Shown piece after piece: positions 1-60,455 of a stretch of DNA of 64,000 nucleotides. This DNA is from Aureibaculum luteum (GTDB lineage Bacteria; Bacteroidota; Bacteroidia; Flavobacteriales; Flavobacteriaceae), in contig NZ_QRGD01000008.1 of assembly GCF_003449015.1 (NCBI RefSeq), positions 1-64,000 of the forward strand, read 5' to 3'. The notes beneath the pieces were generated by a model that worked only from the letters and a program-made list of their open reading frames with translations, ran no database searches and was not told where the DNA came from. Both the position numbers and the translations under genes were made by a program. Numbering within the stretch: position 1 is the stretch's first letter; each line of letters opens with the position of its first letter.

Positions 1-2528
1 CCATTTGTACCAGCATCACCTTTTTCACCTTGGATACCTTGAGCACCTGTTGCACCATTAATTCCATTCGTTCCGTCAGTACCATTTGTACCAGCACCAC
101 CTTGAGCACCGTCAATGCCATCAATTCCATTTGCACCGTTAGTTCCGTCAGCACCATTTGCACCCGTATCACCTTTTTCACCTTGGATACCTTGAGCACC
201 TGTTGCACCGTCTACACCATTAATTCCATTAGTTCCGTCAGTACCATTTGCACCAGTATCACCTTGTTCACCTTTATCACCTTTAGTACCATTCGTTCCG
301 TCAGTACCATTTGTACCAGCACCACCTTGAGCACCGTCAATGCCATCAATTCCATTTGCACCGTTAGTTCCGTCAGCACCATTTGCACCCGTATCACCTT
401 TTTCACCTTGGATACCTTGAGCACCTGTTGCACCGTCTACACCATTAATTCCATTAGTTCCGTCAGTACCATTTGCACCAGTATCACCTTGTTCACCTTT
501 ATCACCTTTAGTACCATTCGTTCCGTCAGTACCATTTGTACCAGCATCACCTTGAGCACCGTCAATGCCATCAATTCCATTTGCACCGTTAGTTCCGTCA
601 GCACCATTTGCACCCGTATCACCTTTTTCACCTTTTTCACCTTGGATACCTTGAGCACCTGTTGCACCGTCGGCACCATTCGTTCCGTCAGTCCCATTTG
701 TACCAGCATCACCCTGTTCACCTTTATCTCCTTTAGTACCATTCGTTCCGTCAATACCATTTGTACCAGTATCACCTGTTAAACCTTGAATACCTTGAGC
801 ACCTGTTGCACCATCGATACCATTTGCACCCGTATCACCTTTTTCACCTTTATCTCCTTTAGTACCATTAGTTCCGTCAGTACCATTTGTACCAGCATCA
901 CCTTTTTCACCTTGGATACCTTGAGCACCTGATGCACCGTCTACACCGTTAATTCCATTCGTTCCGTCAGTACCATTTGTACCAGCATCACCCTGTTCAC
1001 CTTTATCTCCTTTAGTACCATTAGTTCCGTCAGCACCATTTGTTCCATCAATACCGTTAATTCCGTCGATACCATTTGTACCAGCATCACCTTGTTCACC
1101 TTTAGTACCATTCGTTCCGTCAGTACCATTTGCACCAGTATCACCTGTTAAACCTTGAGCACCCGTTGCACCGTCAGCACCATTTATACCAGCATCACCT
1201 TGTTCACCTTTATCTCCTTTAGTACCATTTGCACCAGTGTCACCTTTTTCACCTTGAGCACCCGTTACACCGTTAGTACCGTTTGTTCCGTTTGTACCAT
1301 CAGTTCCTTCTAAAGAAGTTAACCATGCAGCTTCAGTTCCTGAAAAACCATTAGCTATAGCTACTTGATACGCTGAATCTCCATCATCACCCTTATCACC
1401 TTTTTCTCCTTTTAATAGGATTGGTGTTAAATCAATTTGTTCAGTACCACCATTTTCTAATGTTAATGTAATAGTGTTGGTTGTGTTATCTAAACTAAAA
1501 TCCGATATTTTTTGATTGTCTGTATTGTCTAAGTAATTACTTAAATCGACCGTACCACCATCTTCTAAAGTTAAGATGTTGTTATCAATACTTAATTTTT
1601 GATCATCAGAACTAGAACTAGCAATATCTACAGTTTGTGTATTCCCATTTTCTAATGTAATGGTAAGCATAGAACCAGCTAAACTAAAATCAGATATTTT
1701 TTGATTGTCTGTATTGTCTAAGTAATTACTTAAATTGACAGTACCACCATCTTCCAACGTTAAGATGTTGTTATCAATACTTAATTTTTGATCATCAGAA
1801 CTAGAACTAGCAATGTCTACAGTTTGTGTATTACCATTTTCTAATGTAATGGTAAGCATAGAACCAGCTAAACTAAAATCCGATATTTTTTGATTGTCTG
1901 TATTGTCTAAGTAATTACTTAAATCAACCGTACCACCATCTTCCAACGTTAAAATGTTGTTATCAATACTTAATTTTTGATCATCAGAACTAGAACTAGC
2001 AATGTCTACAGTTTGTGTATTACCATTTTCTAATGTAATGGTAAGCATAGAACCAGCTAAACTAAAATCCGATATTTTTTGATTGTCTGTATTGTCTAAG
2101 TAATTACTTAAATCGACCATACCACCATCTTCTAAAGTTAAGATGTTATTGTTGATACTTAATTTTTGATCGTCTGTATTTATGAATTTTGATAAATCTA
2201 CCGTACCACCATCTACTAAACTAAGGATGTTGGTATTTGAATCAAAGCTTAATTTTTGATTATCAGTACCTGTATCACATAAATTGGTCCAGATTGTGGA
2301 GTATTGAAAAACACATTTTTCATCAGTATTGTAAACTAATGCTCCATTTAAGGGAGTCATATTGTTCATCTCAATGTTGGTTATTCTTGTCAAAACAAAT
2401 GCTTTGTTAGAGCTCTCTAGCTCCAATAAAGAAGAAGAGTCTATAGTATTTGGGTTTTCTCCTATTTTAACCTGACCGTAGACAGCAGATGAAACTAGAA
2501 GAAGGAATAAAAATTTAAATATTTTCAT
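1..2528 (-). CDS. Secreted collagen-like repeat protein (3' end outside window)
   Basis: The gene starts with ATG at 2528 and stays open to base 1, so the C-terminus is missing. The protein begins with a signal peptide (MKIFKFLFLLLVSSAVYG, then Q). A short head of about 85 residues follows, then about three and a half copies of a 63-residue unit (motifs DDQKLSIDNNILTLEDGGTV and NYLDNTDNQKISDFSLAGS), then a hinge containing KGEKGDKGDDGDSAYQVAIA and GTEAAWLTSLEG, which resembles linkers in phage-fibre and bacterial collagen-like proteins. From about 1300 down to base 1 there are uninterrupted Gly-X-Y triplets rich in GTNGTDG, KGDKGEQGD and GAQGIQGEKG. Such regions fold as collagen triple helices in known families. 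It is probably a surface or secreted adhesive or structural fibre. A T9SS or anchoring tail may lie beyond the window. The function is inferred. Confidence 0.85.
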   Translation of the reverse strand, partial: MKIFKFLFLLLVSSAVYGQVKIGENPNTIDSSSLLELESSNKAFVLTRITNIEMNNMTPLNGALVYNTDEKCVFQYSTIWTNLCDTGTDNQKLSFDSNTNILSLVDGGTVDLSKFINTDDQKLSINNNILTLEDGGMVDLSNYLDNTDNQKISDFSLAGSMLTITLENGNTQTVDIASSSSDDQKLSIDNNILTLEDGGTVDLSNYLDNTDNQKISDFSLAGSMLTITLENGNTQTVDIASSSSDDQKLSIDNNILTLEDGGTVNLSNYLDNTDNQKISDFSLAGSMLTITLENGNTQTVDIASSSSDDQKLSIDNNILTLEDGGTVDLSNYLDNTDNQKISDFSLDNTTNTITLTLENGGTEQIDLTPILLKGEKGDKGDDGDSAYQVAIANGFSGTEAAWLTSLEGTDGTNGTNGTNGVTGAQGEKGDTGANGTKGDKGEQGDAGINGADGATGAQGLTGDTGANGTDGTNGTKGEQGDAGTNGIDGINGIDGTNGADGTNGTKGDKGEQGDAGTNGTDGTNGINGVDGASGAQGIQGEKGDAGTNGTDGTNGTKGDKGEKGDTGANGIDGATGAQGIQGLTGDTGTNGIDGTNGTKGDKGEQGDAGTNGTDGTNGADGATGAQGIQGEKGEKGDTGANGADGTNGANGIDGIDGAQGDAGTNGTDGTNGTKGDKGEQGDTGANGTDGTNGINGVDGATGAQGIQGEKGDTGANGADGTNGANGIDGIDGAQGGAGTNGTDGTNGTKGDKGEQGDTGANGTDGTNGINGVDGATGAQGIQGEKGDTGANGADGTNGANGIDGIDGAQGGAGTNGTDGTNGINGATGAQGIQGEKGDAGTN
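101..685 (-). repeat. 225-bp tandem repeats inside the collagen-like gene
   Basis: The unit beginning CTTGAGCACCGTCAATGCC (plus strand) starts at 101, 326 and 551, exactly 225 bp (75 residues, 25 Gly-X-Y triplets) apart. Copies 101-325 and 326-550 differ at very few bases. The third copy gains 9 bp (an extra KGE triplet) near 625 and then diverges. Near-identity at synonymous sites indicates recent amplification or gene conversion. Confidence 0.9.
1504..2140 (-). repeat. 189-bp (63-residue) tandem repeats in the stalk
   Basis: The marker GATATTTTTTGATTG (plus strand) recurs at 1504, 1693, 1882 and 2071, each 189 bp apart. Units differ by only a few, mostly silent, bases. Each unit encodes DDQKLSIDNN...LEDGGTVDLSNYLDN...ISDFSLAGSMLTITLENGN, which looks like alternating short beta-strands. 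The copy number is likely to vary between strains. Confidence 0.9.
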
Positions 2529-2949
2529 AGCAGGGGTATTTACTTTTTTTATCTTTTTTAAATTGAAATTATTATGCATGCATAACTGTTAATTAATGAT
2601 GTAACAACTTCAATGGTGTTCTTCCCCAATAAAAGCTATTGTTTTTTTTGTAAAATAATTGGAAATGAAAAAGTTAGACTATCAATAAAACAGATTTATA
2701 CAGCTGTTTTTATCAATTTGGTTAACTTAGCATCAAATAATTAGTAATAACTCCCTAAAACCTAAAAATGATGAAAGATTTTAAAATCAGAAATTATTTT
2801 ATTACTTAAGATAAAATTTTGGGTTATTCGTAAAAGGTTAGTAATTTCATAGTTCCACTTATGTTGTATTGGGAAAACGGCGAAATTTCAATAATATTAT
2901 GCGTGCATATTATTTACACAGGTTAATTATGGGAGGTATTATACTTATT
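2529..2949. other. Intergenic region, no gene seen
   Basis: This 421-bp AT-rich gap separates the collagen-like gene's start from the end of the ATP-grasp gene; both are on the minus strand. I see no convincing ORF or paired TTG/TAnnTTTG promoter. A perfect 12-bp palindrome TATGCATGCATA lies at 2573-2584, and a one-mismatch copy TATGCGTGCATA at 2898-2909, near the two ends of the gap. Confidence 0.5.
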
Positions 2950-17274: not shown

Positions 17275-17319
17275 TTCAAAGATCAACATTCACGATTTTC
17301 GTCAGAGGTTGATTTTGAG
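17275..17319 (-). promoter_or_regulatory. Hairpin filling the rplS 5' leader
   Basis: ATCAAC (17282-17287) pairs with GTTGAT (17308-17313). The stem continues outward with TTCAAA/TTTGAG pairing across one bulged G (17281), and an inner ACGA/TCGT stem sits at 17292-17302. Almost the whole predicted leader folds into this element, ending about 20 nt before the rplS start. Ribosomal proteins often repress their own mRNA through such leaders, so an L19 autoregulatory element is plausible but unproven. Confidence 0.5.
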
Positions 17320-47658: not shown

Positions 47659-47688
47659 TTGCAGAGAACTAAATTGATTGTATTTTTG
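47659..47688 (+). promoter_or_regulatory. Promoter of the SRP RNA gene
   Basis: TTG (47659-47661), 19-bp spacer, TATTTTTG (47681-47688), then CC and the first bases of the RNA. This agrees with the Bacteroidota -33/-7 consensus and gives an internal calibration for other promoters in the window. Confidence 0.75.
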
Positions 47689-47689
47689 C

Positions 47690-47796
47690 CGTGGGTAAGT
47701 CCTACACAACCAGCTCCCTTTGAATCCTCCAGGGCAGGAATGCAGCAAAGGTATTAGGTCGTAGCGGTGTGATGTAGGTCGCTTACCCATTTTTTA
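47690..47796 (+). ncRNA. ffs: Signal recognition particle RNA (small bacterial type)
   Basis: The 4.5S-type RNA scaffolds Ffh in co-translational targeting. End arms TGGGTAAG (47692-47699) and CTTACCCA (47782-47789) pair. The domain IV apex with GGCAGGAATGCAGCAAAGG around 47733-47751 carries the GGAA tetraloop and the asymmetric AGCA loop that bind Ffh. A T-run (TTTTTTATTT) follows the closing arm and terminates transcription. It is on the plus strand, upstream of the SDR gene. Confidence 0.93.
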
Positions 47797-51790: not shown

Positions 51791-53362
51791 TTATTTTTTC
51801 TCAGTGGGTTTATCAACTACAATACGCTGATCACGATTTGCTAATTCCCAAGCGGTGTGAAAAACTAAACGAGATCTGTTTTCTAATAAATCATATTCTA
51901 TTTTGTCTGGAGTATCTGTATGTTGATGATAATCATCATGGGTTCCATTAAAATAAAAAATTACAGGGATATTATTTTTGGCAAAATTATAATGATCTGA
52001 ACGATAGTAAAATCTATTCGGATCATTTTCATCATTATATGTATAATCCAATTCTACATTGGTATACTTTTTATTTACTTCTTCTGAAATATTATGTAAA
52101 TCACTACTTAATTTATCACTACCAATTAGGTAAACATAATTTCTATCACCTTCTGTTCTTTTTGGGTCAGAACGACCAACCATATCGATATTTAAATCAA
52201 CAACTGTATTTTCAAGAGGAAATATAGGATCAACATCCGCATAATAACGAGAACCTAATAATCCTTTTTCTTCTCCCGTTACATGAAGAAATACAACTGA
52301 TCTTTTAGGAGTTTGTCCATTATCCACAGCTTTTTTAAAAGCTTCTGCAATTTCTAAAATAGCTACCGTACCAGAACCGTCATCGTCAGCACCGTTATAA
52401 ACGTTTCCATCTTTTACACCAACATGGTCTAAATGAGCAGAGATAATAACATATTCATCAGGTTTTTCGGATCCTTTAATATAAGCGACTACATTTTCAG
52501 AATTAAAATCCTCTACATTTGATTTGTAAGTTAAAACAGCTGGAACTTTTACTGTTTTAGATGTTGAATTTGTTGCAATATCACTAACAATAGCCTCAGC
52601 TAATGAAGTATTAATCAACATGAAGTTTATTTCACTATCTTTTTTTTCGGTACTCTTTAGACCCATTCTAGTTCTTCCAGAACCAAATCGTTTAGCAATA
52701 TTTGCATAAGCATCAGGATTGTAATATAAAGCGGCTTTCGCACCTTTCTCTTTAGCAATATCCGTTTTAGAACTAAATTCTTGACGCATGTTAGACCATT
52801 TTCCAGTACTTTCTTCAGTTCCAGAAATAATATAGTTACCGTCTTTATCTTTTGGTTCACCATTTTTGAACAATACTATTTTACCAGTAACATCTATATT
52901 CTTATAATCAGAATATTTTTCATCGTCAATACCGTAACCAACAAATATTACTTCTTCAGCATTAATTGTTCCATTGCTTCCAGAAAATGAAACAAAATCG
53001 TCAACTGATTTATAATCTTTACCATTAATATGTACTGTAACCTCAGGAGAACTTGTACGTTCTAATGGTACTTTTTGAAAATACTCATCATTTGGCAAAG
53101 CTGAAGGTACATTTAATGCGACATAATGTTTCTTTATAAATTCTATTGCTTTTTTCTGACCTGGTTCGCCAGTATCTCTTCCTTCATATTCATCTGATGC
53201 GTAAACATATAGTGCCTCTTTTAATTCTTCGGCCGTAATTGATTTCGCGTAATCTTCAACCGTTAAAGTTGGTTTAGCAGGAGTAGCTGAAGTTGTCTTT
53301 TTGGTACTATTACAGCTTACAAGCACAGCAGCTATTGCTAATAGGGATAAAAGTTTTTTCAT
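51791..53362 (-). CDS. M28 family zinc aminopeptidase, lipoprotein
   Basis: This 523-residue protein has the lipoprotein signal MKKLLSLLAIAAVLVSC. A PA-type insert at about 120-270 (EVIFVGYGIDDEKYSDYKNI, GKIVLFKNGEPKDKDG) precedes the peptidase core. Zinc ligands and catalytic acids are in VIISAHLDHVGVKDG (His), VYNGADDDGSGTVAILEIAE (bridging Asp), LHVTGEEKGLLGSRYYAD (catalytic and ligand Glu), VDLNIDMVGRSDPK (Asp) and the last His in RSDHYNFAKNNIPVIFYF. It should remove amino acids from peptides in the periplasm or at the surface. Monocistronic, with a terminator at 51746-51775. Confidence 0.93.
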   Translation of the reverse strand: MKKLLSLLAIAAVLVSCNSTKKTTSATPAKPTLTVEDYAKSITAEELKEALYVYASDEYEGRDTGEPGQKKAIEFIKKHYVALNVPSALPNDEYFQKVPLERTSSPEVTVHINGKDYKSVDDFVSFSGSNGTINAEEVIFVGYGIDDEKYSDYKNIDVTGKIVLFKNGEPKDKDGNYIISGTEESTGKWSNMRQEFSSKTDIAKEKGAKAALYYNPDAYANIAKRFGSGRTRMGLKSTEKKDSEINFMLINTSLAEAIVSDIATNSTSKTVKVPAVLTYKSNVEDFNSENVVAYIKGSEKPDEYVIISAHLDHVGVKDGNVYNGADDDGSGTVAILEIAEAFKKAVDNGQTPKRSVVFLHVTGEEKGLLGSRYYADVDPIFPLENTVVDLNIDMVGRSDPKRTEGDRNYVYLIGSDKLSSDLHNISEEVNKKYTNVELDYTYNDENDPNRFYYRSDHYNFAKNNIPVIFYFNGTHDDYHQHTDTPDKIEYDLLENRSRLVFHTAWELANRDQRIVVDKPTEKK

Positions 53363-56073: not shown

Positions 56074-58062
56074 TTACAACTGCTCTTTCAGCACTTTTAT
56101 TTCATCTCTTAACTGTGCGGCAACTAGAAAGTCCAACGCTTTGGCTGCTTTTTCCATCATTTTTTGACGATCTCTAATTCGTTTTTCAATTTCAGGTTTT
56201 GGTAAATATTCTAAATCCTCTTCAGCCGCTTTTGTAGCAGCTGCATCGTAATGAAAAGAACTAATATTGTTTTTACTTAAACTATCGTCTAGACTCTTTT
56301 TAATTTGCGTTGGGGTAATGTTATGTTTTGTATTGTAAGCGATTTGTTTTTCACGTCTCCCGTTAGTAGCATCAATGGTTAATTGCATGCTATTGGTGAT
56401 TTTATCGGCATACATAATGGCTCTACCATTAATGTTTCTTGCTGCTCTACCAATAGTTTGGGTCAGGGATCGCTGGCTACGTAAAAAACCTTCTTTATCG
56501 GCATCTAAAATAGCAACTAAAGAAACTTCGGGTAAATCTAACCCTTCACGTAATAGGTTTACACCTATTAACACATCAAACAAACCTTTACGAAGTTGTT
56601 GCATTATTTCGACACGCTCCAATGTATCTACATCACTGTGAATATAACGGCAACGAATATGTATTCTGCTCAAATATTTTGTCAATTCCTCTGCCATACG
56701 TTTGGTAAGGGTAGTAACTAAAGTTCGTTCATCTCTTTCTACACGTAATTGAATTTCTTCAATTAAATCATCAATTTGATTTAAGCTTGGTCTAATTTCA
56801 ATTTCTGGATCTAACAGCCCTGTAGGACGAATTACTTGCTCCACAAAAACACCTTCTGTTTTTTGTAATTCATAATCTGCTGGTGTGGCACTCACAAAAA
56901 TTACTTGATTCTGGACTTCTTCAAATTCTTCAAATTTTAATGGACGGTTATCCATTGCCGCAGGTAATCGAAATCCGTATTCAACTAAATTTTCTTTTCT
57001 GGAACGGTCACCACCATACATAGCATGGGTTTGCGGAATGGTAACATGACTTTCATCTACTACCATTAAATAATCATCAGGAAAATAATCTAATAAACAG
57101 AAGGGTCTTGTACCGGGTTGTCTTCCGTCTAGGTAACGTGAGTAATTTTCTATCCCACTACAATACCCTAATTCACGAATCATTTCTAAGTCAAACTCGG
57201 TACGTTCCTTTAAACGTTTCGCTTCAAGATGTTTACCTATTTCTTTAAAATAATCCACCTGTTTCACCATGTCTTCCTGGATTGCATGTATTGCATTTTG
57301 CAATACATCTGGAGAAGTCACAAATAAATTGGCAGGATATATAGTTAGTTTTTCAAATTTTTCAATGATTTGATTGTTGACAATATCAAAACTTTCCATT
57401 TCTTCTATTTCATCACCAAAGAAATGAACACGATAGCCATAATCTCCATAGGAAGGGAAAATAGTTATTGTATCTCCTTTTACTTTAAAAGTCCCGCTTT
57501 TTACCTCAAATTCTGTTCTAGAATATAAGCTGGTAACCAATTGATGTAAAAACTTAGTACGAGGAATTTTTTGATCAATCTCAATATGTATGACATTCTT
57601 TTTAAATTCAACCGGATTACCGATACCATATAAACAAGAAACTGAGGCAACTACCAAAACGTCTCTACGACCAGATAACAACGAAGATGTAGTGCTTAAT
57701 CGCAGACGTTCAATATCATCATTTATGGAAAGATCTTTTTCAATATACAATCCGCTTGAAGGAATATAGGCTTCAGGTTGATAATAATCATAATAGGATA
57801 CAAAATATTCAACCGCATTATTAGGGAAAAAATGTTTAAACTCAGAATACAATTGTGCCGCCAACGTTTTATTATGAGCTAATACTAAGGTAGGCCGTTG
57901 AATGTTATTAACTACATTGGCTACGGTAAAAGTTTTACCGGAACCCGTTACACCTAACAAAGTTTGATAATTTTCACCGGAAGCTATGGCTTCTGTAAGT
58001 TGTCTGATAGCTTCAGGTTGATCTCCTGTGGGCTTAAATTCTGATTTTAATTCGAATTGCAT
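56074..58062 (-). CDS. uvrB: Excinuclease ABC subunit B
   Basis: UvrB verifies DNA damage with UvrA and recruits UvrC in nucleotide excision repair. The 662 residues hold Walker A LLGVTGSGKTFTVANVV, the beta-hairpin region YYDYYQPEAYIPSSGLYIEK, motif II LMVVDESHVTIPQTHAMYGG, helicase motifs LVTTLTKRMAEELTKYL, GVNLLREGLDLPEVSLVAIL and QTIGRAARNINGRAIMYADK, and a C-terminal UVR motif (KMMEKAAKALDFLVAAQLRD). ATG at 58062. A TATTTTTG box on the minus strand lies only 4 nt upstream of the ATG. Confidence 0.97.
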   Translation of the reverse strand: MQFELKSEFKPTGDQPEAIRQLTEAIASGENYQTLLGVTGSGKTFTVANVVNNIQRPTLVLAHNKTLAAQLYSEFKHFFPNNAVEYFVSYYDYYQPEAYIPSSGLYIEKDLSINDDIERLRLSTTSSLLSGRRDVLVVASVSCLYGIGNPVEFKKNVIHIEIDQKIPRTKFLHQLVTSLYSRTEFEVKSGTFKVKGDTITIFPSYGDYGYRVHFFGDEIEEMESFDIVNNQIIEKFEKLTIYPANLFVTSPDVLQNAIHAIQEDMVKQVDYFKEIGKHLEAKRLKERTEFDLEMIRELGYCSGIENYSRYLDGRQPGTRPFCLLDYFPDDYLMVVDESHVTIPQTHAMYGGDRSRKENLVEYGFRLPAAMDNRPLKFEEFEEVQNQVIFVSATPADYELQKTEGVFVEQVIRPTGLLDPEIEIRPSLNQIDDLIEEIQLRVERDERTLVTTLTKRMAEELTKYLSRIHIRCRYIHSDVDTLERVEIMQQLRKGLFDVLIGVNLLREGLDLPEVSLVAILDADKEGFLRSQRSLTQTIGRAARNINGRAIMYADKITNSMQLTIDATNGRREKQIAYNTKHNITPTQIKKSLDDSLSKNNISSFHYDAAATKAAEEDLEYLPKPEIEKRIRDRQKMMEKAAKALDFLVAAQLRDEIKVLKEQL

Positions 58063-58066
58063 TTTA

Positions 58067-58074
58067 CAAAAATA
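58067..58074 (-). promoter_or_regulatory. -7 box of uvrB, 4 nt from the start codon
   Basis: The minus strand reads TATTTTTG, then TAAA, then the ATG at 58062. It matches TAnnTTTG and predicts an almost leaderless mRNA. No TTG at the consensus distance is seen. Confidence 0.5.
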
Positions 58075-58252
58075 ACGAACTAATTTGTATTAAAGGCATA
58101 TGGCAATCCCTTTAATAAGAAGTGATAGGAATTAATATTGTAGTTTGTAATTTGATAAAAAAACGATGTATATATTCTATAACGCTATCGTTAACATTAA
58201 TTAACACTAAGTATAAATTGTTTAATACTAATTTAACATTAAACGATGAATT

Positions 58253-58334
58253 CCGCCTTAAATTTGCGGTATATTATTTGAGTTAGTTAGTTAAATAATG
58301 GGTGTTGGTTCATAAACAACGCCCATTTTTTTTT
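58253..58334 (+). ncRNA. Candidate structured small RNA, copy 1
   Basis: Three hairpins can be drawn. SL1 pairs CCGC (58253-58256) with GCGG (58266-58269). SL2 pairs ATTATTT (58273-58279) with AAATAAT (58293-58299). SL3 pairs GGGTGTTG (58300-58307) with CAACGCCC (58317-58324) with one G-U wobble, then nine T. SL2 and SL3 plus the T-run look like a small RNA ending in an intrinsic terminator. SL1's loop contains TAAATTTG, which also fits the -7 promoter box, so SL1 may instead be a DNA operator and the RNA may start near 58270. Covariation with copy 2 supports selection on pairing. Target and function unknown. Confidence 0.65.
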
Positions 58335-58518
58335 GAATAGAACTTCAATACTTTTTTCAAAATACACGATTTTCTGGAAAACTTACTGTTTTAGATTTCT
58401 AGGCTTCTAATCGAAAATAGTAATTTTCCATATAATTCAATTTAAATCTTAAAATTTTAACAATTATTAACATTAATCATTAATTGTTTAATAGTAATTT
58501 AACATTAATCAAAAAATT

Positions 58519-58599
58519 CTACCTTAAATTTGTAGTATATTATTTGAGTTAGTTAGTTAAATAATGGGTATTGGTTCATAAACAATACCCATTTTTTTT
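58519..58599 (+). ncRNA. Candidate structured small RNA, copy 2
   Basis: It has the same three hairpins as copy 1 but with compensated changes: SL1 CTAC (58519-58522) with GTAG (58532-58535), SL2 ATTATTT (58539-58545) with AAATAAT (58559-58565) unchanged, SL3 GGGTATTG (58566-58573) with CAATACCC (58583-58590) now fully Watson-Crick, then eight T. Loops (CTTAAATTT, the 13-nt GAGTTAGTTAGTT and GTTCATAAA) are identical in both copies. Identical loops with changing stems suggest the loops contact a partner RNA or protein. Confidence 0.65.
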
Positions 58600-58658
58600 G
58601 TTCATCATTTAAAATAGCAACTAAGCGTTTTAGGTGTTTTTGAATTAAAAATTGAGAT

Positions 58659-59537
58659 TTACAAATCTCTTTTCTTTAATAAGGCGTATGAAGCATAAAT
58701 AAAGATAAATATCCAAACAGTAGCAATTGCAATTTGATACCAATGTACACTAACATCAAAAGCAAAATTTTGCCCTAATTGTTTCCCTGCGGTTTGTATC
58801 GCATTTAGTTTTGTAAAAGGTTGTTTTATCAAGTTAGCCATAGACTCTAATGGGAAGAATTGCATGATATCATTTACACCAATAGAAGATAATGAGTCAC
58901 TACTAATAGTATCATTTGAAGCCAATTTATCAGAATTAAATTTCCAAAATAGAAATAACTTAAAAATACTTTCTACAAAAAACCAAACGAGAATACCTCC
59001 AACCGCAAAGGCTGATCGTTTTACTAAAATTCCCATAAAAAGACCAAACGAAAAGAATGCAGTTAATTTTATAAAGAAGGCAAAAAGATAATCTAGATCA
59101 GAAAATATAATACTCAGCTCATTAAAATCTGAATAAATTAGCCCTAAAGTCATTGATACTACAAATACGAAAAATGTAGAAATTGCCGCAAAAACAATTA
59201 CAGTATAAAATTTTGAAAGAATAAATTCCTTTTTACTTAAACCATCAATTAAGTTTTGTTTCAATGTTTTATTACTATACTCATTTGCCATCATAGAAAC
59301 AATTACCAAGAGTAAAAAGAACTTAAAGATAGATGCCATATAGGTGTTGAAATGCCAGATATACGGAAAGTTAAAAATACCTTGATCTGCTAAATGGAAT
59401 TTTATAACACCAATATCAAATTTTATAGCTGCAATTAATGCAATTGATGTTAGTAATGCAAAGTAGATGATAGTGAGCACTCTACTTGCTCTATTGTGCT
59501 TTAGTTTGTGAAATTCTATATTTAAAAGTCGTAACAT
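58659..59537 (-). CDS. ABC-2 type transporter permease
   Basis: This 292-residue integral membrane protein has about six helices: VLTIIYFALLTSIALIAAIK, SIFKFFLLLVIVSMMANEYS, FYTVIVFAAISTFFVFVVSM, LFAFFIKLTAFFSFGLFMGI, SAFAVGGILVWFFVESIFKL and VHWYQIAIATVWIFIFIYAS. The N-terminal LRLLNIEFHKLKHNRASRVL and NEYSNKTLKQNLIDGLSKKE between helices 2 and 3 are typical of bacteriocin- or lantibiotic-immunity-like ABC-2 permeases (ABC2_membrane_4). The substrate is unknown. It works with the ATPase encoded 18 bp upstream. Confidence 0.87.
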   Translation of the reverse strand: MLRLLNIEFHKLKHNRASRVLTIIYFALLTSIALIAAIKFDIGVIKFHLADQGIFNFPYIWHFNTYMASIFKFFLLLVIVSMMANEYSNKTLKQNLIDGLSKKEFILSKFYTVIVFAAISTFFVFVVSMTLGLIYSDFNELSIIFSDLDYLFAFFIKLTAFFSFGLFMGILVKRSAFAVGGILVWFFVESIFKLFLFWKFNSDKLASNDTISSDSLSSIGVNDIMQFFPLESMANLIKQPFTKLNAIQTAGKQLGQNFAFDVSVHWYQIAIATVWIFIFIYASYALLKKRDL

Positions 59538-59555: not shown

Positions 59556-60455
59556 TTAGTTGTTGTTGGTAAGGGTTAAAAACTGTTGCTCTAAACTTGG
59601 CATTCGTTTCACTAAATGTGATAGCGTTATTCCGTTTTTAAATAAATACGCATTGATTTCAGATGCTGACAATTCATTTTCCAAGGAGGCAATTAATTTT
59701 CCATCTTCTTTTTTTACGCTAGCTATTGCTGGATGCTTTTCTAATAACTCCCATAGTTTTTCTGATTCGGCTTCTGTATTTAATTCAAAATAGCCATTTG
59801 TTGCTGTAATACCATCAACAGCTCCAGAATAAAGTTTAATACCATTGCGGATTACAACGACATGTGAACATACTTTTTCAACTTCATCTAATAAGTGAGA
59901 TGCTAATAGAATGGTAGTCCCATTACTAGCAATGTCTTTAATAATTTTACGAATTTCATGAATTCCTTGCGGATCTAGTCCGTTAGTAGGTTCATCAAGA
60001 ATTAAAATTTCAGGGTCATTTAATAGGGCAGAGGCAATAGCTAATCGTTGTTTCATACCTAAAGAATAGGTTTTAAATTTGCTATCTCTACGCTCAAATA
60101 AATTAACAACTTTTAGTTTTTCATCAATCTTATCATAAGAAACGCCTTTGATTTTGCAAATAAGTTTTAGATTTTGAACCGCTGTCATGTACGGATAGAA
60201 ATTAGGACGCTCTATAATTGCTCCAACTTTTTTTAGAGCTTCATGTGTAGAAATGTTTCCGTCAAACCAACTGAATTCTCCAGAGGTTTTATTAACAACA
60301 TTTAAAATGATTCCTAAAGTAGTAGATTTTCCACTACCATTTGGACCTAAAATGCCATAAACATTGCCTTTTTCAATATCAAAGGATAGGTTATTTACCG
60401 CATGTACACTTCCAAATTTTTTATCTAAATTTCTGAGGGATAAGATGTTTTCCAA
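59556..60455 (-). CDS. ABC transporter ATP-binding protein
   Basis: This 299-residue ATPase has Walker A GILGPNGSGKSTTLGIIL, signature YSLGMKQRLAIASALLN, Walker B PEILILDEPTNGLDPQGIHE and the H-loop TTILLASHLLDEVEKVC. About 85 C-terminal residues after the core form a small regulatory domain as in BcrA/NatA-like drug or bacteriocin transporters. The start is TTG at 60455 (ENILSLRNLDKKFGSVHAVN follows). A stop lies 8 codons upstream and no ATG or GTG is available. It forms a two-gene operon with the ABC-2 permease. It should not be assumed to serve the MacB-like permease at 10 kb. Confidence 0.93.
   Translation of the reverse strand: MENILSLRNLDKKFGSVHAVNNLSFDIEKGNVYGILGPNGSGKSTTLGIILNVVNKTSGEFSWFDGNISTHEALKKVGAIIERPNFYPYMTAVQNLKLICKIKGVSYDKIDEKLKVVNLFERRDSKFKTYSLGMKQRLAIASALLNDPEILILDEPTNGLDPQGIHEIRKIIKDIASNGTTILLASHLLDEVEKVCSHVVVIRNGIKLYSGAVDGITATNGYFELNTEAESEKLWELLEKHPAIASVKKEDGKLIASLENELSASEINAYLFKNGITLSHLVKRMPSLEQQFLTLTNNN

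Follow-up and report, generated by a model that had tools for sequence, protein, structure and literature searches.

SusC/SusD pairs are the glycan importers of the phylum Bacteroidota. In gut Bacteroides, control of SusC by FopS small RNAs (sRNAs) has been shown experimentally, and FopS associates with RbpB (available excerpts of PMC11697453). Among the open-PMC matches listed, no report was found of post-transcriptional control of SusC in Flavobacteriaceae, nor of the seed or the network described below.

The locus considered here belongs to Aureibaculum luteum (Flavobacteriaceae) and lies in the window, that is, the whole stretch of 64,000 nucleotides analysed (contig NZ_QRGD01000008.1, positions 1 to 64,000). 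It holds two tandem units that are like FopS (RF04319, Bacteroides) in being short multicopy paralogs made of a 5' seed and then a terminator, in having the canonical promoter of the phylum and in pairing with the translation start region of SusC mRNA, the pairing being a prediction in our case (FopS as in the excerpts of PMC11697453). Paralogs in the A. luteum genome are the two units and a copy downstream of lipA, and the 24 occurrences of an 11-mer treated below need not all be paralogs. FopS begins with GUGUUUUUCAUgGUAUUAGAU (its R1/R1' seed), whereas the units are without UUUUUCAU and without the UUUUCAU part, and are predicted to pair, unlike FopS, upstream of the SusC start codon. Many motif copies here lie in 3'UTRs, as against one 3'UTR-derived RNA among the 14 FopS of B. 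thetaiotaomicron (excerpts of PMC11697453). The FopS covariance model gave 16.7 and 15.9 bits on the units against a gathering score of 56, a partial match of unit 1 (17.4 bits) covered model positions 27–71 only, and the A. luteum genome held no FopS match over the cut-off. An RbpB-type partner is unlikely, as the genome yielded no RRM_1 protein: the search with PF00076 gave no match at E ≤ 0.001 in an assembly that is 99.97% complete, and was positive in the controls Bacteroides ihuae and Synechococcus elongatus.

No known class had been recognised in an earlier note on this DNA, which advised excluding the flavobacterial RNA motif flavo-1 of Rfam. Indeed, no Rfam family reaches its threshold at the site of the units, and flavo-1 is not among the 13 matches in 58060–58660 even at E ≤ 10. 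Rfam membership of the units was rejected, because only two RNAs reach threshold in the window, neither of them at the unit site: a Bacteroidales small SRP RNA at 47686–47792 (+) and an L19-Flavobacteria leader at 17284–17311 (−). Rfp18 of Flavobacterium psychrophilum is, like the units, a flavobacterial sRNA with predicted base-pairing targets; its third stem-loop is described as pairing with metalloprotease mRNAs, and it is by this description that it differs from the units (excerpts of PMC9723704). MalH of E. coli, a 3'UTR-derived regulator of uptake genes that comes from the end of a transporter operon, recalls the 3'UTR copies of the motif here, but it belongs to another phylum and has another sequence, and for our copies we infer release from the 3'UTR (MalH as in the excerpts of PMC8081044).

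Results

Layout of the two units

The units lie on the plus strand, with aligned cores at 58253–58325 (unit 1) and 58519–58591 (unit 2) spaced by 266 bp. Their description in the earlier note proved exact to the base: the cores differ at exactly seven positions, every one compensated or wobble, of which four fall in a proposed stem, 'SL1' (CCGC/GCGG in unit 1, CTAC/GTAG in unit 2; two compensated pairs), and three turn GGGTGTTG/CAACGCCC into GGGTATTG/CAATACCC (one compensated pair and one change from G-U to A-U), and the T runs at the ends measure 9 and 8 nt, respectively. The likeness between the units starts about 35 nt upstream of where that note had placed it, and covers two further boxes. 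One, TGTTTAATA (58219–58227 and 58485–58493, +), does not vary among the 13 sequences of alignment A3 and may have a promoter-associated role; the other, TTTAACATTAA (58232–58242 and 58498–58508, +), is a possible −33 region with TTAACA in all 13 sequences of A3. Downstream follow the −7 promoter box TAAATTTG, of the form TAnnTTTG and situated within 'SL1' (58259–58266 and 58525–58532, +; alignment A2), and the seed ATTATTTGAGTTAGTTAGTT, the predicted 5' end of the RNA (58273–58292 and 58539–58558, +), which is nearly invariant in A2 and A3 and complementary to SusC leaders. Each unit closes with an intrinsic terminator, identified by fold and helix conservation: hairpin ATGGGTGTTG/CAACGCCCAT with T9 at 58298–58334 (+) in unit 1 and hairpin ATGGGTATTG/CAATACCCAT with T8 at 58564–58599 (+) in unit 2.

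Both neighbours are on the opposite strand. The gene uvrB (56074–58062, −; NCBIfam TIGR00631/NF003673) is divergent from the units and marks the orthologous locus in the genus; on the other side, convergent with the units, is an ORF without NCBIfam match that appears to encode a permease (58659–59537, −), adjoined by an ABC ATP-binding ORF (59556–60455, −) that ABC ATPase models matched below their cut-offs.

Homologues in the genus

A BLAST search with unit 2 found homologues at E ≤ 1e-4 in nine of the 17 genus genomes, A. luteum included, and in seven of the 11 high-quality ones. Its 15 matches comprise 14 whole units and one short match elsewhere in the A. luteum genome; homologues in this number speak against a chance resemblance. 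As paired sibling small-RNA candidates, the units were rightly read by the earlier note. In the 14-copy alignment, conservation extends over TGTTTAATA, TTAACA and TA..TTTG and, further on, over the seed and some of the terminator. Tandem units stand beside a uvrB-like ORF in Aureibaculum flavum and A. marinum as well, with two exact copies of the 19-mer TTATTTGAGTTAGTTAGTT each; the A. marinum unit sequences agree with genome G003, in which BLAST finds three units. An ORF with the uvrB start MQF.L.S.FKPTGDQP adjoins the unit at L403, L404, L406, L407, L225 and L252. In one A. flavum unit (L011/L225, G002), the GTTA repeat of the seed is expanded by 12 nt.

A model, R1, scored 88.2 and 87.5 bits on the units, values that are not independent of the model, as the units are among the sequences used to build it; the next match in the A. 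luteum genome had 48.5 bits. All 17 genus genomes have an R1 match at E ≤ 0.01, but in eight the matches are confined to other loci or score low. At the lower end of its scores R1 lacks specificity: owing to the near symmetry of the terminator, it also matches the opposite strand of units, with up to 49.0 bits (G003), and low-scoring matches were not counted as family members.

Promoter box, terminator and seed

The fold of each unit beats 200 of 200 dinucleotide shuffles, with z = −3.24 and −3.26 for the 82- and 81-nt units and z = −4.47 and −3.77 for versions of 64 and 63 nt that start past the −7 box; the minimum-free-energy fold of the 81-nt unit 2 contains neither 'SL1' nor 'SL2' as drawn. 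The earlier note had seen in the units the pattern of RNAs held by selection on structure, expecting homologues with preserved pairing in related genomes. Across the 14 homologues this stands for the terminator stem (SL3), in which 100% of cells are paired and two pairs show two-sided changes, and fails for the other two stems, whose pairing is broken in several of the copies: 'SL1' has 73.2% of cells paired, one pair broken in seven of 14 and two pairs with two-sided changes, and 'SL2' has 84.7% of cells paired and zero two-sided changes. Covariation of stems as the main signal was rejected, since 'SL1' coincides in part with the promoter box and fails to persist, and 'SL2' is broken in several homologues.

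Flavobacterial sigma-A has TAnnTTTG as its −7 consensus (excerpts of PMC9723704). As this box lies within 'SL1' in 14 of 14 homologues, where the pairing is often broken, 'SL1' is probably promoter DNA. The simplest reading is that the predicted RNA starts with the seed, near 58271 in unit 1 and 58537 in unit 2, though a longer transcript may be made. The most conserved transcribed part in A2 and A3 is the 5' stretch ATTATTTGAGTTAGTTAGTT, which is predicted to be about half unpaired (0.53–0.54) in eight of the 14 genus copies, with 0.25 in one and 0.70–0.83 in five. None of the 14 predicted RNAs has an ATG, GTG or TTG frame of 20 codons, and the sole reading frame common to all is a two-codon TTG frame within the seed; without a shared ORF, a peptide-coding role was rejected. 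Three hallmarks that the sequence of an independently transcribed sRNA gene should show, namely a promoter box (14 of 14), a fully paired terminator and the lack of a conserved ORF, were found.

Complementarity to SusC leaders

The A. luteum genome has 35 matches to the SusC model. For 28 SusC leaders (TIGR04056 loci), the 40 nt before the ATG were compared with the seed, the background being 367 ORFs, each 120 aa or longer, that lie in the window and in 400 kb of the same genome. At least eight contiguous Watson–Crick pairs with the seed are possible in 16 of the 28 SusC leaders and in six of the 367 background ORFs (Fisher 1.5e-16), and at least nine in nine of 28 as against four of 367. None of 200 shuffled seeds matched the observed excess of SusC over background in mean run length, among shuffled SusC leaders an average of 1.3 of 28 and never more than 6 reached eight pairs, and the reverse complement of the seed, used as a control, did so in none of the 28. 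When 14 overlapping windows of 20 nt were taken stepwise along unit 2, complementarity peaked at 58540–58559 (15 of 28 versus six of 367; 3e-15); the windows ten bases to either side, which overlap the seed, gave 7 and 6 of 28, and the remaining eleven between 0 and 4. Of the 16 pairing blocks, 14 begin at −21 to −11 relative to the SusC start. The other 12 leaders remain below 8 nt of pairing, and several of them carry ACTAACTTAA, which pairs with one G-U.

Two leaders outside the SusC group could mark further targets: that of an ORF at about 1097–2713 (+) of L155, which we take to be PEP carboxykinase, has 10 nt of seed complement, and that of a window ORF at about 51791–53362 (−), presumably a peptidase, has 8 nt.

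Copies of the seed motif in the A. luteum genome

The 14-mer TTATTTGAGTTAGT has nine exact sites in this genome, and 23 with one mismatch as against 13 for the reversed control; the 11-mer TTTGAGTTAGT has 24 sites against seven for the control. A terminator-like hairpin follows 17 of the 24 exact 11-mers, the same test being positive at 64 of 800 random positions, and one of the 24 is a reverse complement directly before a susC start (L120). In nine of 29 susCD operons, the 11-mer (up to two mismatches; exact in five of the nine) and a hairpin stand after the ORF 3' of susC, which is SusD by Pfam PF07980 in one case and was assumed to be SusD in the others. Operons with the motif after susD do not differ in antiseed in their own susC leader from those without (six of nine versus 11 of 19, p 0.49; with a stricter cut, five of nine versus 10 of 19, p 0.60). 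Simple autoregulation, in which the motif after susD would pair with the leader of its own susC, was rejected for this lack of association. The 3'UTR copies may be released as sRNAs; should they have any effect, it would more probably be cross-regulation than autoregulation, because their presence is uncorrelated with pairing in the same operon.

A second candidate gene downstream of lipA

R1 also matches units downstream of lipA in the genus (L408–L413, L420, L421 and L425, and L121 in A. luteum), in tandem in G012, G014, G015 and G016; lipA was identified by TIGR00510 at L410 and by the common C-terminus at the other loci. A sigma-54-like box, TGGCA-N6-TTGC with at most one substitution, is present in 10 of 12 units of the lipA type, one of the 10 (L179) belonging to another genus. 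The predicted RNA reads UUUUCAUUGUAU(A/G)AAUUAUUUGAGUUAGUUAA followed by a terminator, with small variations. It has UUAUUUGAGUUAGUU and the terminator in common with the window units, whereas UUUUCAUUGUAU, which resembles FopS, and the sigma-54-like box belong to the lipA-downstream sRNA alone.

FopS is the best Rfam family for both tandem copies at L410, over its full length (28.6 and 24.9 bits; threshold 56), and at the A. luteum lipA copy it comes second (23.8 bits) to Phe_leader (25.6 bits), all three FopS scores lying below the threshold; FopS was not among the matches listed for this copy in larger Rfam scans. A reciprocal model, R2, matched three of nine viral-contig elements with a FopS 23-mer (25.0, 23.5 and 16.9 bits), unrelated stretches of the window reaching 21.8 bits, and had zero matches in 20 outgroup SusC loci; seven of the nine viral-contig loci were scanned with Rfam, none of them reaching the FopS threshold. 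On these scores, the lipA-downstream RNAs may, but need not, share an ancestor with FopS.

Spread of the motif in other genera

The exact 14-mer is present in 52 of 120 sampled genomes of the family (genus members G000 and G003 included), with 92 matches as against 10 for the reversed control. Outside the genus, the remaining 118 genomes have 76 exact sites, 74 of them distinct once two whose 74-nt context is identical to L307 were dropped. Of these 74, 41 precede a terminator-like hairpin, 17 are the complement, situated no more than 45 nt from where an ORF of 200 aa or longer starts, one lies within an ORF and 15 are of other kinds. SusC-like proteins, by phmmer against those of A. luteum, are encoded by 15 of the 17 ORFs with antiseed at the start, and 11 of the 15 begin MKLK. 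By this N-terminus the 11 look like one ortholog group; the 15 cases are therefore not independent and would represent about four independent leaders. The antiseed context of 74 nt is identical at L307, L310 and L328 (G042, G020 and G058, listed as three genera), which may reflect recent transfer or assembly mixing.

When the top SusC of each of 34 other family genomes was taken, eight of 34 leaders paired over at least 8 nt; among 454 other ORFs, taken at the 19-mer loci L191–L265, the number was 10 (6e-6). Among 24 SusC of other families of the phylum, one paired to this extent, which is the chance level. In GTDB contigs, 75 stretches hold 77 sites of the 19-mer, and apart from two (Prochlorococcus and Methanothrix) these stretches are titled as flavobacterial or as unspecified Bacteroidota bins; 65 of the 77 are followed by a terminator-like hairpin, and at one site (L238) the complement stands ahead of a SusC-like start. 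At E ≤ 0.05, R1 has matches in 155 of 199 genomes of the family, a figure that includes two genus genomes matched by construction and overstates the spread, because R1 matches the opposite strands of units with up to 49 bits.

The motif has several kinds of surroundings in these genomes. Two consecutive seeds (for example TTATTTGAGTTAGTATTTTTTGAGTTAGTTAGTTT) followed by a terminator form candidate stand-alone RNAs at L164, L174, L176, L177, L180 (downstream of a DUF4197 gene), L183–L186 and L189. Motif and terminator lie in the 3'UTR of leuB at L334 (TIGR00169) and at L298, which has a matching protein start, with similar sites elsewhere, and in the 3'UTR of a small gene at Winogradskyella/Psychroserpens loci (L191, L200 and many more); by Pfam, this gene encodes an ankyrin-repeat protein in L200, and at many of these loci the motif faces a convergent gene, an M48 peptidase in L191. 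The 19-mers of the Allomuricauda type (L201, L233, L240, L241 and L263) are in sense orientation and have no terminator; they start 22–27 nt upstream of a lipoprotein-like ORF, counted to its ATG.

Discussion

Because the complement of the seed is concentrated before SusC starts, and the controls do not reproduce it, we consider it probable that the units are tandem, independently transcribed, trans-acting sRNAs that pair with SusC leaders and likely block the initiation of translation, within a wider network built on the same seed. Each unit would be transcribed on its own as an sRNA of about 60 nt, from a sigma-A promoter whose −7 box is TAnnTTTG down to the intrinsic terminator; a terminator hairpin preceded by the 5' seed AUUAUUUGAGUUAGUUAGUU would make up nearly the whole RNA. 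The seed would pair with ACTAACTCAAAT and its variants, within about 20 nt upstream of the start codon, in the mRNAs of many outer-membrane receptors of the SusC family, where pairing would most likely block translation initiation. To the wider network would belong the motif and terminator after susD in several operons and on other transcripts, and a second stand-alone gene, downstream of lipA and behind a sigma-54-like box. The computation covers sequence conservation, covariation in the terminator, conservation of the promoter box and the complementarity of seed and leaders with its controls; from these we infer transcription, its start site, pairing in vivo and the sign of regulation. What weighs against this reading is the partial pairing predicted for the seed in most genus copies, the 12 SusC leaders with less than 8 nt of pairing, the lack of association within susCD operons, the small margin of the 14-mer with one mismatch over its control and the shared origin of most SusC-like antiseed cases in other genera. 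Repression is the likelier sign, but the sequence itself gives none, and the units may instead activate.

The frequency with which terminator-like hairpins follow the motif (17 of 24 11-mers, 65 of 77 19-mers and 41 of 74 14-mers, versus 64 of 800 random positions) would also suit a termination- or 3'-end-associated site, recognised by an RNA-binding protein, an RNase or a chaperone, in place of a pairing seed. Such a site would leave unexplained why the exact complement is concentrated before SusC starts, and we regard it as improbable as the whole account; nor is it exclusive, as a chaperone site and a seed can coincide. It is also conceivable that the AACTCAAAT box of the SusC leaders has a function of its own in DNA or in translation, as a regulator site or an enhancer for example, and that its complementarity to the small RNAs is a coincidence or the result of ancient inverted copying. 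The leaders of one SusC group are in fact alike over a longer stretch in several genera, yet the position of the blocks (14 of 16 starting at −21 to −11), the failure of the reverse complement of the seed in all 28 leaders and the peak of complementarity at the most conserved part of the RNA make this quite unlikely.

The existence of several sources of one seed within one genome brings to mind sponges or decoys, which would titrate other regulators of SusC mRNAs with net activation as the outcome. Since what the units have in common with the 3'UTR copies is the seed itself, and not its complement, they cannot pair with those copies through it, and a role of this kind seems very unlikely. Least credible of all, in our opinion, are ordinary bidirectional terminators or attenuators serving the flanking uvrB and ABC genes: each unit does end in a strong hairpin, but the flanking genes are on the other strand, and the promoter box and the seed are conserved along with the hairpin.

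SusC control by paralogous sRNAs is already known from the FopS of Bacteroides, and SusC-directed sRNAs at this locus would be a variant with another seed. It is tempting, if rather doubtful, to go further and regard this one seed as a family-wide regulatory code for SusC translation, issued both by sRNA genes (under sigma-A at uvrB and behind a sigma-54-like box at lipA) and by the terminators of transcripts such as susCD and leuB; expression of one glycan system or biosynthetic operon would then damp many others, and the code might be an ancient relative of FopS that works without RbpB. If the units are indeed SusC-directed sRNAs, a defined seed and defined target sites would be at hand for a regulon of many SusC genes. 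This would also suggest feedback from one polysaccharide operon, through its 3' end, on others, and that the units tune sugar uptake by way of SusC messages.
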